Notes under the pieces: generated by a model
What the model saw: only the letters and a program-made list of their open reading frames with translations
The model's database searches: none
Told to the model about the DNA's origin: nothing
Shown here: in pieces, positions 53 through 25,659 of the stretch
Layout: the number at the start of each line of letters is the position of its first letter
Numbering within the stretch: the stretch's first letter is position 1
Program-made: the position numbers and the translations under genes
Virus record (IMG/VR): IMGVR_UViG_3300025128_007045
Coordinates: 1 to 33,322 of that record
Source of the DNA: a virus
Direction: 5' to 3' (one strand)
Length of the DNA stretch: 33,322 nt

Positions 53-201
53 TATTCTGCCTCCTCAAACCGGGCATTAAACTCTGCCCACATTTCAAGC
101 TGACAATCGCAGTCATAAAAGTGCACTTGGTGAAAGTCACAGATGTAGTCTTCGCACAGGTCACACATCGACAGGTCGTCATAATCAATGAGTCTGGTCA
201 T
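52..201 (-). CDS. 49-aa Cys/His-rich small protein
   Basis: This small gene encodes 49 residues beginning MTRLIDYDDL. It has a metal-binding look: CDLCEDYIC (CxxC, then another Cys), a DFHQVH stretch with two His, then YDCDC, followed by an acidic helical tail ending EEAE. I recall similar short proteins with a YDCDC ending next to phage methyltransferases, but I know no function. The ATG overlaps the methyltransferase stop as ATGA, so it is probably translationally coupled and is the last gene of the early operon. The end of the overprinted frame (stop at 185) also lies inside it, so all three minus-strand frames are open here. Zinc binding is inference from the Cys/His spacing. Confidence 0.65.
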   Translation of the reverse strand: MTRLIDYDDLSMCDLCEDYICDFHQVHFYDCDCQLEMWAEFNARFEEAE

Positions 202-1003
202 GACAATTCGGCCCAGCACTGTTGCCAGGCAACTGCTGCTGCTCCAGGTACGACGCCGTTTCCAGCAAGGCGGACGCGTTCACTCTGACGGAGGTCCAGC
301 CATCCGGCCATCCCATGAGCCAGTCCGTGAAGTCTGGATTTAGACGCTGCTGGGAATAGTCGCTCCGGAACTTCGTGCCATCCTGGGTCGGCAGGACCAG
401 GTGGGTAATGTCCCAGCGCACGGCTTGATCCGGTAGCAACTCGCCTCTCAACTTGCCGTCCTTGCGTACCAGCGACTCGTTGGAGTAGCCGCCCTTGTAG
501 TCCCTTGCTGCCGGCGTCGCCCAGCGCCCGGCTGTATGCAAGGATGAAGAGTCTCTCCCGTTTGTGCGGTGCGCCGACTGATTCAGCTGTGACGAGTGTG
601 CACGCAATCTCATAACCCAATCGGCGTAAGCTTTCTCCGACGGGGCTTTCGAATCCCATGGATAAATGTGCGGCGACATTCTCAAAGAAGCACCAAACAG
701 GTCGAGTTGCCTCGATTCCTGCCTCAATGTAAGGCCAGAGGTTGCGGGGATCGGCTTCTCCCAACCTGTCTTGGTTTGCTGTGCTCCAAGGCTGACATGG
801 GTAGCCACCCACGATTCCATCCACGCGTCCACTAAATTTTGAGAAGTCGAAGGACTTGATGTCACTCCAGATAGGAGCTGCAGGTAAGGCTGAATCTTCC
901 ATGCGCGATGCCAGGACTGTGCTGGCATTTGCATCTCTCTCAATGTACACGACTGGGACAGCCGTTCCGCCTGAGCCTTGGACAACACCGAGGTCGAGCC
1001 CAC
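185..1003 (-). CDS. overprinted frame inside dcm, WLMG-motif protein
   Basis: A 272-codon open frame (GTG start) lies almost entirely inside the methyltransferase gene, same strand, different frame, and runs 13 nt past its end. It does not look random. From about residue 100 it reads DLFGASLRMSP, then GRWATPAARDYKGGY (159-173), then LNPDFTDWLMGWPDGWTS (221-238). I recognise the pattern W-TP-ARD-KG followed by LNPxFxxWLMGxPxGWT as recurrent in phage proteins encoded next to or overlapping Dcm-type methyltransferases; that is memory, not a search. Its function is unknown. The first 100 residues look unconstrained, so the real start may lie further downstream. The alternative is a non-translated shadow frame whose motifs merely reflect conservation of the methyltransferase. 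Confidence 0.45.
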   Translation of the reverse strand: MGSTSVLSKAQAERLSQSCTLREMQMPAQSWHRAWKIQPYLQLLSGVTSSPSTSQNLVDAWMESWVATHVSLGAQQTKTGWEKPIPATSGLTLRQESRQLDLFGASLRMSPHIYPWDSKAPSEKAYADWVMRLRAHSSQLNQSAHRTNGRDSSSLHTAGRWATPAARDYKGGYSNESLVRKDGKLRGELLPDQAVRWDITHLVLPTQDGTKFRSDYSQQRLNPDFTDWLMGWPDGWTSVRVNASALLETASYLEQQQLPGNSAGPNCHDQTH

Positions 1004-1142
1004 CGACTCCCGAGCAAACTGAGATGTAGGGATGTAGAGCCAGATGTCTATCGCCCCTTCGGTCTACCGACCTGGCCTTGGGGTCCGTGATGGGAGGGCT
1101 TTGCTTTTCTGGGATGGATACTGAATGGACCAGTGACCTCAA
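198..1142 (-). CDS. dcm: DNA (cytosine-5) methyltransferase, Dcm/HhaI type
   Basis: This is an orphan C5-cytosine methyltransferase that likely methylates phage DNA to evade host restriction; no partner endonuclease is visible. Motifs in order: motif I ISVCSGVGGLDLG at residues 40-52 (SAM binding), motif IV GGYPCQPWS at 112-120 with catalytic Cys116, motif VI FENV at 153-156, motif VIII APHKRERLF at 191-199, a variable target-recognition region at about 200-270, and motif X RLAGNGVVP at 291-299. The length of about 280-314 aa fits a compact phage enzyme. The start is odd: no ATG or GTG exists in this frame between the upstream in-frame TGA and motif I. The coordinates use TTG at 1142; a CTG at 1043, about 10 nt after AAGGGG, would fit the domain better. 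A long second frame overlaps it on the same strand. Confidence 0.93.
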   Translation of the reverse strand: MRSLVHSVSIPEKQSPPITDPKARSVDRRGDRHLALHPYISVCSGVGGLDLGVVQGSGGTAVPVVYIERDANASTVLASRMEDSALPAAPIWSDIKSFDFSKFSGRVDGIVGGYPCQPWSTANQDRLGEADPRNLWPYIEAGIEATRPVWCFFENVAAHLSMGFESPVGESLRRLGYEIACTLVTAESVGAPHKRERLFILAYSRALGDAGSKGLQGRLLQRVAGTQGRQVERRVATGSSRALGHYPPGPADPGWHEVPERLFPAASKSRLHGLAHGMAGWLDLRQSERVRLAGNGVVPGAAAVAWQQCWAELS

Positions 1143-8029: not shown

Positions 8030-9115
8030 TCACGCGCCCCTCTCGATTCGATAGTACGAACCTCCTGCTGTGAAGCCGGACCCCGTATCAGTCCGAACAA
8101 CTGGCACCAGCTGTGGATGGAACGCTGAGTCCCATACCTCACCAATCAGGAATCCCTGCTGCCAGTTCGCTTTACCTCCCTTGACGTACTCAAGGTCAAT
8201 CCGACACATGCACCCACACTCGTACCAGGCGTGGGTTTTTGCGAACGGATGAAGATCTGTTTTGAAGAACGCACCCAGTCGGTGCGTATGACCATTGACT
8301 CCTGACGAGCCAAAGTTGTCTAAATGTTTCCGTGCTGTGTAGGCGGAGTGTGTGCTGACGTAGTTCCCATGTGTGATGAGGAAGCCAAGAAAATCTATCC
8401 CCGCTCCATAGGGGACGTAGCCGTCCACTCGCTCATCTAAATTGAGCACGGTCGCTAGGTCCTGCACAAGGAATGAGAAGTTGTTTTGCGCAGAGGCTTT
8501 CCAGATGGTGCGGTTGATTCGTTCTTCATGATTGCCATCAATCCAGAAAATCTTGGCACCTGGAATTATTTCTTTATGGCGTTCGATGAGTTCGATTCCC
8601 ATCATGATCTCATCCTGGAGACTGAAGGTTCGATTAGGGTTTTGGTCGAATGTTGACAGCTCGTAACAATCGAGAATGTCTCCATTAAGGAAGATGTAAT
8701 GCGGCTGGTACTCTTCAAGAAATCTGAAGTACGCATCCACCACAGGTATGTCAATAAACGGTAGCTGGAAGTCCGAAGACACGACAACTCGGGAACCTTC
8801 GGGGACTTCTTTAAGTAGCAGTGAACCTCTCGCAATGTAGTTTCGATAGAGTTGCTGCATCTGTGGGTCTGCCGGGCCGCTATTGGCCTTTGAGGCGGCA
8901 TTACGGCACTCCTGTGAGCAGAGTTTCTGGCCGGAACGATAGGGCCTGAAGGTGTTGCCACACTCCTGGCAATCTATTACTTCAGGAGGTGCTGTCCACT
9001 TACTATTATTTTTGCGCTTAGTTGCCAGGCGACAATCGGGACAGTACTTTGTGTTTGGATGTGCGCGGGGAAGGAGAGGTTCCCCGCACACTGTACACGG
9101 TCTACTCTTTGGCAC
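8030..9115 (-). CDS. metallophosphoesterase with two N-terminal zinc ribbons
   Basis: A 361-aa protein of the calcineurin-like phosphoesterase fold. Residues 1-72 hold two zinc-binding units (Cys7, Cys10, Cys25, Cys28 and Cys49, Cys52, Cys66, Cys70). The catalytic domain follows: SSDFQLP (Asp115, with Gln117 where many relatives have His), LNGDILD (145-149), DGNHEER (193-199), ITHGN (247-251) and NGHTHRLG (274-281). The family cleaves phosphomonoesters or phosphodiesters, often in nucleic acids; the zinc ribbons suggest a nucleic-acid or protein-bound substrate, but the true substrate is unknown. The start is GTG overlapping the holin-like gene by 14 nt. It is the last gene of the lysis operon, an unusual place for such an enzyme. 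Confidence 0.85.
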   Translation of the reverse strand: MPKSRPCTVCGEPLLPRAHPNTKYCPDCRLATKRKNNSKWTAPPEVIDCQECGNTFRPYRSGQKLCSQECRNAASKANSGPADPQMQQLYRNYIARGSLLLKEVPEGSRVVVSSDFQLPFIDIPVVDAYFRFLEEYQPHYIFLNGDILDCYELSTFDQNPNRTFSLQDEIMMGIELIERHKEIIPGAKIFWIDGNHEERINRTIWKASAQNNFSFLVQDLATVLNLDERVDGYVPYGAGIDFLGFLITHGNYVSTHSAYTARKHLDNFGSSGVNGHTHRLGAFFKTDLHPFAKTHAWYECGCMCRIDLEYVKGGKANWQQGFLIGEVWDSAFHPQLVPVVRTDTGSGFTAGGSYYRIERGA

Positions 9116-20769: not shown

Positions 20770-23700
20770 CTACATGCCCAAATCTCGGGCTAATCTGCGA
20801 CCAGCAGTTGTCAGGGCTTTGTATCCACGCGAATACACAAGCGCCTCATCGAGTGCTGGATTGCGTCGACGCATTTGTTCGCGGTCGCGCTTCACGTCTT
20901 TATCGATGAACTTACGAATCGTTTCAAGCCTAACAAGTTCCCCCCTGGATCCAGTTTTACGCATAAACTTTTCCATTTCGTTGTAAGACCGAATAGGTGT
21001 GTTAGTTATATTCTCTACCCGGCGACGGTAGTCTTCGAAGACATGTTCCTGTACGGCCCAGTAGTCGGAATCGTTTACATACTCCTGCGCTCTGAGGAAT
21101 GTGTGTATCTCAGGAGGGTGGTCCTTAAGGTGTAATGCAAAGTAGTCATCAATGAACGCACGCTCTCCATCAGTGAGGGTACTCAGGTAATTCTGCAGCA
21201 ATGGGTCAGCTCGTTCCCAGTCCAGTGGACTGTAGGCTCCCATCTCAGGAAATGTTTTGAGCTCATCGTTCTCCAGGATTTCGAAGTAGCCATTTACAGC
21301 TCGAAGGTTTGGGTCATCTGACTCGGCCCAATCGTAAGAGGTAATGTCTTTAGCTTTCTTGGTGAGCGAAGCCCGGAGCTTAATATCTTTGAAATGCTTC
21401 GCAAAATCTTTGCGGTCAATGTCGCCGTTTGCCACAGCCACAGCCAGCGCACGCTCCGCTTCATACTTCATCACGTCTATCTCTTGTTTTTGTACTCGAG
21501 CTTGAGCTTCGATATCACCGTTTTCTGCACGCGTTAAGAGCTGCTCATCTATCTCCCTGGTAAGCTCTGGGTACATTTCTTCGATGGCTAATTTTTCGGT
21601 CTTGGTTAACGATGCCCATTCCTTATCGTATTCGGCAATCGAACGTAAGTCTCTTCGTTCTCTGGGAGTCTGCCTGGCAGCTTTTATACCGGTGGCATTC
21701 ATGGCAGTACCGAGAGCAATCTGTGTGGGTGACAATCCGTCCATACCCATGTCTACAGTGTTCTGCAAAGTGAATGGTAATCTACCGAGTCCGAGTCGAA
21801 GTGCACTCATTCCAAGTACCCTGGGGTCGTCGGTTAGAAAGTTTACCGGGTCTCCCTGGAATGTCTCCTGCAGCATTAAGTCTGCCATCACGTTCACCGC
21901 AGGTGAGGCTTTCGTCCTAAAGAGTTTCGCTGAAGACGACGCAGGCCCTTCTGTAATCCCCGTCATAATCAAACCCATGAGTGAGTCCCAGGAACCAAAC
22001 AGCGAGACGTCATCACCGCTTGGTAAACGGATGCGCAAGAAGTTTGTGTTGTAGTGCGGCTTCCCCTCAGCGTCGTATCGAATCGGATTGAATTCCGTCT
22101 CCTCGCCCTGAACAGAATTCAGGAACCAGGTAGTGACTACACCGGCAGTAAGAGTACGCATCAGTAAGTCACGAGCCATGCGACCTTCAGCATTATCTTT
22201 AATGGCGGCATTGCGAAGTAGGTTTAATTGCGAGCCGAAATAACGAGGGGCGAACATAATCGCTGACGTTAGTGACGATGGGTTTTCAGACCTGAATCCC
22301 GTCGCGTTGTTTATTTGTTCGGCGAGCTCCTTTCGGTTCGCCTCACCCACAGCTCCTCTCATCGTGCCTCGCCCGGTAATTCTGTTAAGGAAACTAGCTT
22401 CAGCCATTCCACGTTCGTACAGCATGAGCCGCAGCAGGTTCCCGGTGCGGGAGAAATGAAAGTTCGCAGCCTCTACAGCTTTACCTACGCCGAAAGGAAT
22501 CCTGGTAATCTTGCTGGGGAATAAGAATTCACCAGCGTCACTGAGAGGGGCCCAGTACACGCCGTCTTTAATCATGCTCGTAATGACATCGTGTTTACTG
22601 ACGACGTACTGGTTGTAGAACTTAGGATCTTTTAACGCTGCAGTGGTCATGATAATGATGCGGGCGGCACGGATTGGATCTACGCCTATGGCTAACAGTC
22701 CCTGGATACCAATTGCTGACAAGTCCATCGTGGCGTTTAGAGCTCTGGCGAAATTGTTGAATGAGCCTATGTATGGCAACAGGTCTTTATTTGTGCTGAG
22801 GTACTCGTTCATTGAGTCAGCGAAACCTGATTTGTAAAAACGCTGACCAGAAATAAAGGCGTCGATGTGGCCCTCGTCTGGTCCTAGACGTGAGGCTTGA
22901 GCTCGCGCCTGTTGATAAAATAATTTCGCATCAGCAAGGGTCTGCCGCTGTGCATCCAGCGAACCCAAAATTTCTTCCAGCTCCTCGATGTAGGCGGTGT
23001 GCTTCGCATTAGTTCTATCCAGGCTGCGCAGCATTGTGTTGATCTCACTGCGCAAAATCTGTGAACGGCCTTCCTGGCGATTCACTACTTGGGCATTGAA
23101 TTCCACTCTGCGTAAACCTTCAGCACGACCAATGGAATATCCCAGCTGATCTTCAATTTCTAATATTTGTTTTTCGTTGGCAGTCTTTAGCCAGGTATCT
23201 ATCTTGCCCTCGGAACGGCGGTACAGCCGGTCGACTGTTTCAAGGACATCAGACAATTCATCAGGGTCAACCGGGGAACCGACAGCCAAGCGGGTAGTGA
23301 GGCGTTCTAATTTTGCATTGGCTTTCACTAACGCACGGTAGGTGGCACCACTTGCATGATGGGACCTATTCATGCCAGCTATTTCCAGTGAGCCAATCAT
23401 TTGCCTGGAAAGCCTGAGTAGCTCATTTGATGACTCAGTCTGAGCACCCGCAATTCTGGCAGCAGACCGTTCGGACTGTCCACCTAATCTGTCTATCGAC
23501 GCAGCAGTGCGCTCGAATTCAATGTTAGCTTGTGATGCTTTTTTCTCCAGAGCTACGATGCGCCTGGTGGCAGCTCGTAATGTTTTCTGTGAGGCCTCCA
23601 AGCCACGCAGGGTCATATTCCATTTTGGTGTTTGCTTGATGCGGTCATTAACAGTAAGCCCCTGTTTGCGCATTGCATCGCTAAACCATTTGCCTACAGC

Positions 23701-25659
23701 TCTGTCACCACTTGCCTGCGCACGGGTATATAAAATCGCGCCTGGATCTTCCAGATACGCCACGTCACCCTTCTTCATGGACTCAGCGTTTTCAATCATC
23801 CGGCGGATGTATGTAGCCCCACCTTCATCGGAGCCATGTATACGTTGCCGCTCTGCATCCATTCGCCCAAAGGCTCCCTGGATACCCTGACCGCTGGCTT
23901 CCCCACGCACGACGATTCTTGGAAAGTAATAGCCATCGCCATCACCGTATCGCTCGAACATGTCACCGAACCACCAGTCCTCCTCATACGACAACCGCTC
24001 TTTACCTAAGTGCTTTAAATCTTCACCGAGGATTTCATAGGTGGTTACACCAGCACGCTCGTCTAAATCTGTGAGCATGCGCAGGTCGTTCTCAATCTCT
24101 TGGAATACGTCTTCCCAGGCTTTAGCTTCTTCAGTGAATTTGAAGCCACGGTCATCATTTGTAAGTACTGCGTATTTTGCTTTTAGGTCATCACGGAATT
24201 TGCCATTTACGAATGCTTCTTTTAACGAGATGCCATCCACCACAGCCCTGTCGAACATTTCATCAATTTCAATAGCCCGGCGTGCGAAGTACCCTGACAG
24301 GGCCTTCTTCATAAATTCAGCTTCGCCTTGCAGAAGCGCAGCGTCTGCTTCTCCTCCTAGGAATAATGGGACATCACCCCACTCACGCATCTCCAAGTCG
24401 CCTGCTTTTTCGATCAGTTCCCCTGCGTCATCAAACTTGTCTTCCGCAATGATCCAGGGAAATGTATCTGTCGAGTTCATCTCATCAATCAACTCATGGA
24501 TCTCATCTGTAGTTCGTATATGATCTGAGTCAATCGTTCGTAGGTATGCGGCCTCACGCCTGACATCGTCGTAGCTTGTAGGTCTGAAGTCGAGGTCTAA
24601 TTCATGCTCGATTTGAGACCGAGGCTTTTTAGGGTTTCTCACAATATCCATTACACGTGAACGCTGTTCTTTTGTGAGGCCCCGACGGATTAATAATCTT
24701 GCATCCAGGTCCGACCCGAAGAACTCGTCTGAAGACGCAGTCTCAAAGTCTCTCCAAAATTTGTCATCGTGATGCCGGATGGACCGGCGTTCTACATCGG
24801 TGAGGTCTTCCCATTCTTTTTTGTAGATAAGCTGTGATATTTCATCTAGCTCTTTGAGGGCTTGAGCGTCATAGTTTTCTGCTTGGACGAGTTCCTTTTT
24901 CCGAAGCGCGAGCTTCAACGCGGAGATAGCCTCTTCAGCATCCACCTGCCTGCCAAGTGCTCGAGCACCAGACAGTACGCCCCGTGCACCAGCTATTGAA
25001 CCGATTACCGTAGCGGCTATCGGACCTCCGACTTTGAATGCGGTCGGGGCATCTTCGGGAATACTGTCTGCAGTGACGTCACCTAACGCACGGCCTCCCA
25101 GAATCTCACCACCCACCAGTGCCTGGCGAACTCCGGTGCTTTGAAATTTGTTTTGGAAGGGGGCAGTCATAAGGGCTTCCCCAACTTTCATCGAGCCTTG
25201 AGCTCCACGCAAAGCTGCCTTTATTGCCGGGCTACTTGTGGCTGCTTTCACACCGAGTCGTGTAGCGGCACCACGGAACACGTTGGCACCAAACCCTATA
25301 CCCGACATACCGCCAGTTGGAATCATTGCTGCTAAGAGGGCGAGGTTCGTAGGACGAGTGCTTTCTTCTATAAGCACATTTCCGATTTCATCGACAGGAC
25401 CAGGGAGGTCTGGTATGCGGAAACCCGCTCGTTCTGACAGAGGTTTGTCAGCCGCTAGGAATCCACGACCTAACCCGCGAGCACCGGACCCCAGGGCACC
25501 GGTGAATCCTGGCATTAAGCTGCTGCCTTCGTCCTCCTCCTCAACTTGGCTCACACTTTGAAACCCGGGTGCGGTCGGACTAAAGCCTGTGGGGCCAACA
25601 GTCCGTTTAGTTTGAACGCCCTCGGTGGGTCGTAAACTGTAATTTAGTGGGGCTGGCAT
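20770..25659 (-). CDS. giant internal virion (ejection-type) protein, 1629 aa
   Basis: A 1629-aa protein, the largest in the window. The N-terminal 250 residues contain Gly/Ala-rich hydrophobic stretches (NLALLAAMIPTGGMSGIGFG, IAATVIGSIAGARG) that could insert in membranes. The middle third is helical and charged, and a coiled-coil region spans roughly residues 700-930. Residues 950-1400 are conserved-looking with membrane-like helices (LSAIGIQGLLAIGVDP, LTAGVVTTWFLNSV). The layout suits an internal core protein released into the host during DNA ejection, like the large core proteins of T7-type phages; no sequence identity to these is claimed. The ATG comes 2 nt after the preceding stop. Confidence 0.7.
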   Translation of the reverse strand: MPAPLNYSLRPTEGVQTKRTVGPTGFSPTAPGFQSVSQVEEEDEGSSLMPGFTGALGSGARGLGRGFLAADKPLSERAGFRIPDLPGPVDEIGNVLIEESTRPTNLALLAAMIPTGGMSGIGFGANVFRGAATRLGVKAATSSPAIKAALRGAQGSMKVGEALMTAPFQNKFQSTGVRQALVGGEILGGRALGDVTADSIPEDAPTAFKVGGPIAATVIGSIAGARGVLSGARALGRQVDAEEAISALKLALRKKELVQAENYDAQALKELDEISQLIYKKEWEDLTDVERRSIRHHDDKFWRDFETASSDEFFGSDLDARLLIRRGLTKEQRSRVMDIVRNPKKPRSQIEHELDLDFRPTSYDDVRREAAYLRTIDSDHIRTTDEIHELIDEMNSTDTFPWIIAEDKFDDAGELIEKAGDLEMREWGDVPLFLGGEADAALLQGEAEFMKKALSGYFARRAIEIDEMFDRAVVDGISLKEAFVNGKFRDDLKAKYAVLTNDDRGFKFTEEAKAWEDVFQEIENDLRMLTDLDERAGVTTYEILGEDLKHLGKERLSYEEDWWFGDMFERYGDGDGYYFPRIVVRGEASGQGIQGAFGRMDAERQRIHGSDEGGATYIRRMIENAESMKKGDVAYLEDPGAILYTRAQASGDRAVGKWFSDAMRKQGLTVNDRIKQTPKWNMTLRGLEASQKTLRAATRRIVALEKKASQANIEFERTAASIDRLGGQSERSAARIAGAQTESSNELLRLSRQMIGSLEIAGMNRSHHASGATYRALVKANAKLERLTTRLAVGSPVDPDELSDVLETVDRLYRRSEGKIDTWLKTANEKQILEIEDQLGYSIGRAEGLRRVEFNAQVVNRQEGRSQILRSEINTMLRSLDRTNAKHTAYIEELEEILGSLDAQRQTLADAKLFYQQARAQASRLGPDEGHIDAFISGQRFYKSGFADSMNEYLSTNKDLLPYIGSFNNFARALNATMDLSAIGIQGLLAIGVDPIRAARIIIMTTAALKDPKFYNQYVVSKHDVITSMIKDGVYWAPLSDAGEFLFPSKITRIPFGVGKAVEAANFHFSRTGNLLRLMLYERGMAEASFLNRITGRGTMRGAVGEANRKELAEQINNATGFRSENPSSLTSAIMFAPRYFGSQLNLLRNAAIKDNAEGRMARDLLMRTLTAGVVTTWFLNSVQGEETEFNPIRYDAEGKPHYNTNFLRIRLPSGDDVSLFGSWDSLMGLIMTGITEGPASSSAKLFRTKASPAVNVMADLMLQETFQGDPVNFLTDDPRVLGMSALRLGLGRLPFTLQNTVDMGMDGLSPTQIALGTAMNATGIKAARQTPRERRDLRSIAEYDKEWASLTKTEKLAIEEMYPELTREIDEQLLTRAENGDIEAQARVQKQEIDVMKYEAERALAVAVANGDIDRKDFAKHFKDIKLRASLTKKAKDITSYDWAESDDPNLRAVNGYFEILENDELKTFPEMGAYSPLDWERADPLLQNYLSTLTDGERAFIDDYFALHLKDHPPEIHTFLRAQEYVNDSDYWAVQEHVFEDYRRRVENITNTPIRSYNEMEKFMRKTGSRGELVRLETIRKFIDKDVKRDREQMRRRNPALDEALVYSRGYKALTTAGRRLARDLGM

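Follow-up and report, generated by a model that had tools for sequence, protein, structure and literature searches.

The stretch analysed here, called the window throughout, is the whole of the IMG/VR virus record IMGVR_UViG_3300025128_007045 (33,322 nucleotides; nt), a phage record with genes for an integrase, a terminase, a major head protein and an amidase in its 33 kb. At its left end, on the minus strand, lies a C5-cytosine methyltransferase (dcm) gene that is coded in two frames. The original prediction for this DNA had proposed that the dcm gene is overprinted by a 272-codon open reading frame (ORF) starting with GTG, and such an ORF does exist at 185-1003 (minus strand), in the +1 frame of the dcm ORF at 198-1142 (minus strand). 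The frame is open further upstream of the GTG at 1003, to 292 codons in all, and its stop falls 13 nt past the one that ends dcm at 198; no stop interrupts the +1 frame anywhere along the dcm gene. We refer to the product of the dcm frame as alpha and to that of the +1 frame as beta. The features of the locus are as follows.

198..1142, minus strand: alpha, C5-cytosine methyltransferase ORF; TTG at 1142, start suggested by homology CTG at 1043-1041; motifs I-VIII and X
185..1045, minus strand: beta, +1-frame ORF; GTG at 1003 in the original prediction, start suggested by homology ATC at 1045-1043; module resembling a target-recognition domain (TRD), and motif IX
1040..1045, minus strand: overlapping start site ATCTGG (beta ATC, alpha CTG); counterpart of ATGTGG in relatives (beta ATG, alpha GTG)
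1054..1059, minus strand: putative Shine-Dalgarno-like AAGGGG, 8 nt before the start hexamer
999..1022, minus strand: alpha motif I, SVCSGVGG
789..809, minus strand: alpha motif IV with the catalytic PCQ, GGYPCQP
675..686, minus strand: alpha motif VI, FENV
537..575, minus strand: alpha motif VIII, GAPHKRERLFILA
419..523, minus strand: beta recognition-like module, single copy, WATPAARDYKGGYSNESLVRKDGKLRGELLPDQAV
296..343, minus strand: beta motif IX equivalent, LNPDFTDWLMGWPDGW; placed alike, with the recognition region on one side and motif X on the other, in the single-chain relative L119
237..272, minus strand: alpha motif X, RLAGNGVVPGAA
1048..1314, minus strand: upstream ORF of 88 amino acids, terminating 2 nt short of the overlapping start site

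Both peptides that had drawn attention to the alternate frame are encoded in it (WATPAARDYKGG.. in the module at 419-523 and the motif at 296-343), and the dcm frame retains methyltransferase motifs I, IV, VI, VIII and X in full. Dual coding had been proposed over the target-recognition region and motif X; this part stands, and the extent needs correction, for the alternate frame also covers motifs I-VIII.

Constraint on the alternate frame

Stop codons were counted in 54 viral loci (L002-L055) that had been gathered using peptide patterns drawn solely from the dcm frame and are hence unselected for the alternate frame; together with the window and one annotated phage, these gave 40 genes with scorable motifs. 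Expected numbers came from synonymous codon shuffling, and the +2 frame served as a control. From motif IV to motif X the 40 genes contain 2 stops in the +1 frame against 143.7 expected, and 432 in the +2 frame against 427. The window alone has none in +1 where 2.9 are expected (P = 0.01). Near-identical contigs are counted one by one throughout, apart from clustered counts, and the contigs include some bacterial prophages or decayed copies. When all loci were grouped into 75 clusters (<80% identity), the +1 frame held 16 stops against 164 expected across motifs I-VIII and 0 against 90 between motifs VIII and IX, with +2 at expectation. The original prediction had allowed that homologous dcm genes might carry alternate-frame stops freely, and it is the contrary that we observe: they are strongly depleted. 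In canonical phage dcm genes, by contrast, +1 stops over the whole gene stay near expectation (observed/expected: IPP48, 25/26.3; PWc, 22/22.7; CHPC1148, 11/13.8).

Conservation of the encoded amino acids points the same way. In every region overlapped by beta, +1 conservation exceeds that of synonymous shuffles (z 12 to 29), as foreseen for a conserved overlapping gene, and the signal fades past the end of beta (z 2.7). Over the stretch of motif IX (WLMG), beta is the more conserved product, at 2.82 vs 2.07 for alpha. In the +2 frame there is an excess too, though a smaller one (z 7 to 12), which is the share contributed by common ancestry and shared nucleotides.

Probable division of the methyltransferase between two chains

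Alpha has the features of a C5-methyltransferase, with a DNA_methylase domain and motifs I, IV (PCQ), VI (ENV) and VIII. Pfam PF00145 matches it with E=4e-26, confined to motifs I-VIII, and phrog_363 with E=1e-42. Neither a recognition domain nor motif IX is found in its own chain; the counterpart of motif IX lies in the +1 frame. The AlphaFold model of the window alpha is confident for residues 1-178 (the large domain) and 262-280 (the motif X helix), and residues 179-261, the small-domain region, come out as disordered, with a predicted local distance difference test (pLDDT) score of about 30; in beta, the DNA of this part codes for the recognition region and motif IX. Foldseek searches with this model returned M.HaeIII, M.HhaI and DNMT1, the best being M.HaeIII (1dct, E=5e-12). 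Alpha may nonetheless contribute to the recognition region too, because a WPARPGExQYEWEEPRV stretch is kept in this region, between motifs VIII and X, in many alphas (L002, L007, L022, L024 and others); the window alpha has YPPGPADPGWHEV in its place.

Beta matches PHROG 1008, labelled 'DNA methyltransferase' (E=3e-15, 57 bits), and no Pfam or NCBIfam entry in profile searches; its N-terminal half found no counterpart in the profile libraries searched. A hidden HNH endonuclease of the type reported in PMC11855218 was considered and rejected, as beta has no HNH or other Pfam match. The alternate product had been said to resemble separate phage proteins encoded near Dcm genes. It does: PHROG 1008 is common to the window beta, Mycobacterium phage Peaches gp76, Paenibacillus phage Bloom_57, the 'Mte8-like' protein of phage K1G and the C-termini of single-chain enzymes, so the WLMG motif occurs in independent genes and not only as a translated shadow of dcm. 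The PHROG label is silent on the recognition and motif IX half, and on coding across another methyltransferase ORF. A peptide pattern from P0001 alone had found no viral relatives; the alpha query and the beta alignment (A1, which includes 27 relatives) did find them.

It is the single-chain relatives that allow a function, described as unknown in the original prediction, to be named. L119, an Actinomycetota contig, has a single ORF of 730 codons in which residues 9-190 match alpha, residues 407-653 match betas (E=1e-5 with the window beta, E=2e-20 with that of L094) and residues 655-700 match alpha motif X. Gp58 of Gordonia phage Gudmit matches phrog_363 (alpha) at its N-terminus and phrog_1008 (beta) at its C-terminus (E=4e-49), and PHROG 116, a full-length family, spans both halves. 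The single-chain order is hence alpha (I-VIII), beta (WPTP modules and LNPxFxxWLMGxPxGW) and alpha again (motif X). In most loci LNPxFxxWLMGxPxGW likewise closes beta, and 22 codons separate it from the GN of alpha motif X. Because L119 and Gudmit carry their beta match at that place, homology identifies beta as motif IX plus the variable region that alpha is without, a region that presumably recognises the target.

Between the overlap with motif VIII and motif IX, betas carry 1-7 modules of WPTPxARD type, roughly 30-45 residues each; the window beta has one. Modules 50-66% identical to it stand at the first, middle or last position of arrays in other loci (for instance third of three in L174, fourth of four in L157, and fifth of five in L155 and L200), and since window-like modules occur at such varied positions, the modules fit exchangeable target-recognition cassettes.

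The two predicted start codons also lie close together. Among 111 distinct loci of the MW(I/L)xP type, start codons overlap in 88: 71 have ATGTGG (ATG for beta and, 2 nt on, GTG for alpha) and 17 have GTG for both. The ATC and CTG pair of the window hexamer, ATCTGG, is unique in this set, a single base making both starts non-standard. The upstream 88-amino-acid ORF is possibly coupled translationally to the dual start.

By profile, 183 loci have motifs I-VIII and X in alpha (frame 0) and IX in the +1 frame, the partition of M.EcoHK31I, a count that describes arrangements rather than prevalence, given that L061-L220 were found through beta. On the strength of this conservation we reject an accidental pair of compensating frameshifts in the window. 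Beta is +1 relative to alpha in all 95 loci scored by regular expression (95/95), and it overlaps nearly all of alpha in this common split type. Thirteen further loci ('Q-type') have both IX and X in beta, the partition of M.AquI, and beta there still overlaps most or all of I-VIII. A split with a short overlap, of 23-32 nt, is seen in the gene pairs of Mycobacterium phage Peaches (gp77/gp76) and Streptomyces phage Lilbooboo (32/33), and L119 and Gudmit, as noted, are single chains. In a tree built from motifs I-VIII the states are interspersed, with 11 changes, and well supported branches force at least 6 changes for the common type. In L113 and L120 the same EPDIPRVA..GV.DR...LGNAVVPQQFYP stretch is encoded in opposite frames, the alpha frame of one locus and the beta frame of the other, which suggests that either chain can supply motif X; that motif X can sit in either chain is natural evidence that the two form one enzyme.

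Five loci from Rhizobiales and relatives (L116, L123, L130, L131, L132) have a C-terminal dual-frame piece only, FNPNFSDWxMGWPIGWT over DAAGNGVVSLAAAYAWRTLK, without motifs I-VIII, and look like decayed copies.

Interpretation and rival readings

We suggest, with a probability of about 0.85, that the two frames of the gene each specify one half of a single heterodimeric C5-cytosine methyltransferase, of the type represented by M.EcoHK31I. Alpha would provide AdoMet (S-adenosylmethionine) binding and catalysis through motifs I-VIII and X, and beta the variable recognition module and the motif IX that the dcm frame does not have. A single ribosome-binding site probably serves both start codons, 2 nt apart. 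We infer that both frames are translated and that the chains would pair into a single enzyme methylating phage DNA, most likely against host restriction, with the WPTP modules setting its specificity. The odds seem to us slightly better than even that the window represents a widespread class of phage enzymes, in which the subunits are almost fully superimposed, the dual site ATGTGG fixes their ratio, cassettes are exchanged, motif X moves between chains by frameshift, and cassette arrays make the enzymes multispecific against host restriction.

Several results weigh against the two-chain enzyme. A profile of motif IX(-X) gave no significant match in the PDB, its best C5-methyltransferase being plant DRM (E=0.7), and the identity of motif IX is for this reason one of position and homology, not of structure. 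Modelled by itself with AlphaFold, beta reached a pLDDT of 51, a poor result that was kept out of the fold comparison, although a subunit lacking its partner and represented by few sequences could be expected to model badly. Non-overlapped controls show 12 +1 stops against 24 expected across motifs I-VIII, and the stop null is therefore somewhat generous, overestimating stops, though not tenfold. Loci L061-L220, having been found via beta, are biased to carry it; L002-L055 are not so biased. In M.EcoHK31I itself the TRD has been predicted in the larger subunit (PMC3404938), and here the WPTP modules are in beta. Finally, ATC and CTG are weak starts, so the window copy may be poorly expressed.

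This last point bears on the least improbable of the rivals, which we nevertheless regard as unlikely: that the family is real and the window copy is inactive, or its start hexamer misread. ATCTGG in place of ATGTGG, with both starts non-standard, is seen only in the window, and it would mean either weak initiation, or the use of other starts (TTG at 1142, GTG at 1003), or a misread base; yet both window frames are otherwise intact and every motif is conserved. Least credible of all is an untranslated alternate frame, open only as a passive shadow of dcm codon choice. Biased codons can produce long shadow frames, and the deficit in the controls may be of this nature, but it is far from 2 stops where 144 are expected with +2 at expectation, canonical phage dcm genes show nothing comparable, and a shadow would not account for conserved start codons.

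Two further possibilities, each with very little probability in our estimate, accept that the beta frame is translated and differ on its product. One is a single polypeptide made by programmed frameshifting, passing from alpha into beta for the recognition region and motif IX and back into alpha for motif X. The resulting order of motifs would match that of single-chain enzymes, and splits with minimal overlap, such as Peaches gp77/gp76, could be joined by one frameshift. The common type, however, would need two, and its beta has a start of its own that overlaps that of alpha in most loci, a stop of its own soon after motif IX, and a conserved N-terminal half beneath motifs I-VIII. That half, being without counterpart in the profile libraries searched, would in turn favour the other possibility, a separate accessory protein, be it a regulator, an inhibitor or an anti-restriction factor, with nothing but the locus in common with alpha. 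Against an accessory protein stand the C-terminal half of beta, which is the C-terminal half of single-chain methyltransferases, and the movement of motif X between alpha and beta.

Elsewhere in the window, the neighbouring genes that were tested included neither a restriction enzyme nor any other defence gene. At 13-52, at the contig end and downstream of the dual-frame gene, the 19-nt sequence ATCCGTGGTAGTTGAGTTT occurs twice as a perfect direct repeat, with the copies 21 nt apart. The ORF at 8030-9115 (minus strand) joins an HNH-like N-terminal stretch (phrog_1271, residues 2-83) to a metallo-phosphoesterase (phrog_221, residues 105-352), and in the structural region the ORF at 20770-25659 (minus strand), of 1629 amino acids, has no PHROG match at E<=1e-3.

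Annotation and relation to known systems

Public phage records hold only alpha, only beta, or both as two 'DNA methyltransferases', most often just one of the two, and the dual-frame arrangement explains such annotation errors. Both frames are annotated in GenBank for Escherichia phage K1G and Paenibacillus phage Bloom; only beta is annotated for Klebsiella phage PIN2 (L231, 1358-2419) and Acidovorax phage Alfacinha1 (L057, 1221-2354), in which the unannotated alpha frame has 0 and 1 stops vs 7.6 and 6.8 expected, respectively. Cloning the annotated ORF alone would probably yield an inactive enzyme.

C5-methyltransferases of two chains are already known, namely M.AquI (CYCGRG) and M.EcoHK31I (YGGCCR), the latter with motifs I-VIII and X in the larger chain and motif IX in a separate smaller polypeptide (PMC3404938); M.EcoHK31I has been used for building targeted methyltransferases (PMC3439449). 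The window shares this partition of motifs. Lee, Kam and Shaw reportedly found in 1995 that the smaller ORF of M.EcoHK31I is nested out of frame in the larger and that both are needed for activity. Unlike that system, the present one has a beta of nearly the whole length of alpha, starts 2 nt apart and 1-7 WPTP modules, and belongs to phages and prophages, with no restriction enzyme seen beside the window copy. M.AquI is likewise a C5-methyltransferase in two polypeptides of which the second supplies motif IX (PMC3404938). Its type of split places motif X in the second chain as well, which matches the 13 Q-type relatives and Peaches gp77/gp76 but not the window, where motif X is in alpha.

The multispecific C5-methyltransferases of the Bacillus phages SPR and phi3T are single chains in which the recognition modules between motifs VIII and IX vary in number. 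The enzymes described here resemble them in the variable number of modules and differ in having these in a second frame. In the ShiLan-domain methylases a mobile HNH endonuclease is inserted out of frame in a phage methylase gene (PMC11855218). There too a second-frame gene lies within a phage methylase gene, but in our case the second frame would be part of the enzyme itself. In the open-access literature, to which the search was confined, we found no description of a dual frame across the family, of start codons that overlap or of a motif X that moves; new here are the split in 183 loci, the near-full overlap with starts 2 nt apart, the motif X that changes frame and the arrays of 1-7 modules. 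In most gene overlaps an established gene is joined by a novel accessory protein, whereas here both frames would encode parts of one enzyme. With every state still extant (single chain, minimal overlap, full overlap and swapped motif), one can trace step by step how an overlap between genes arose.
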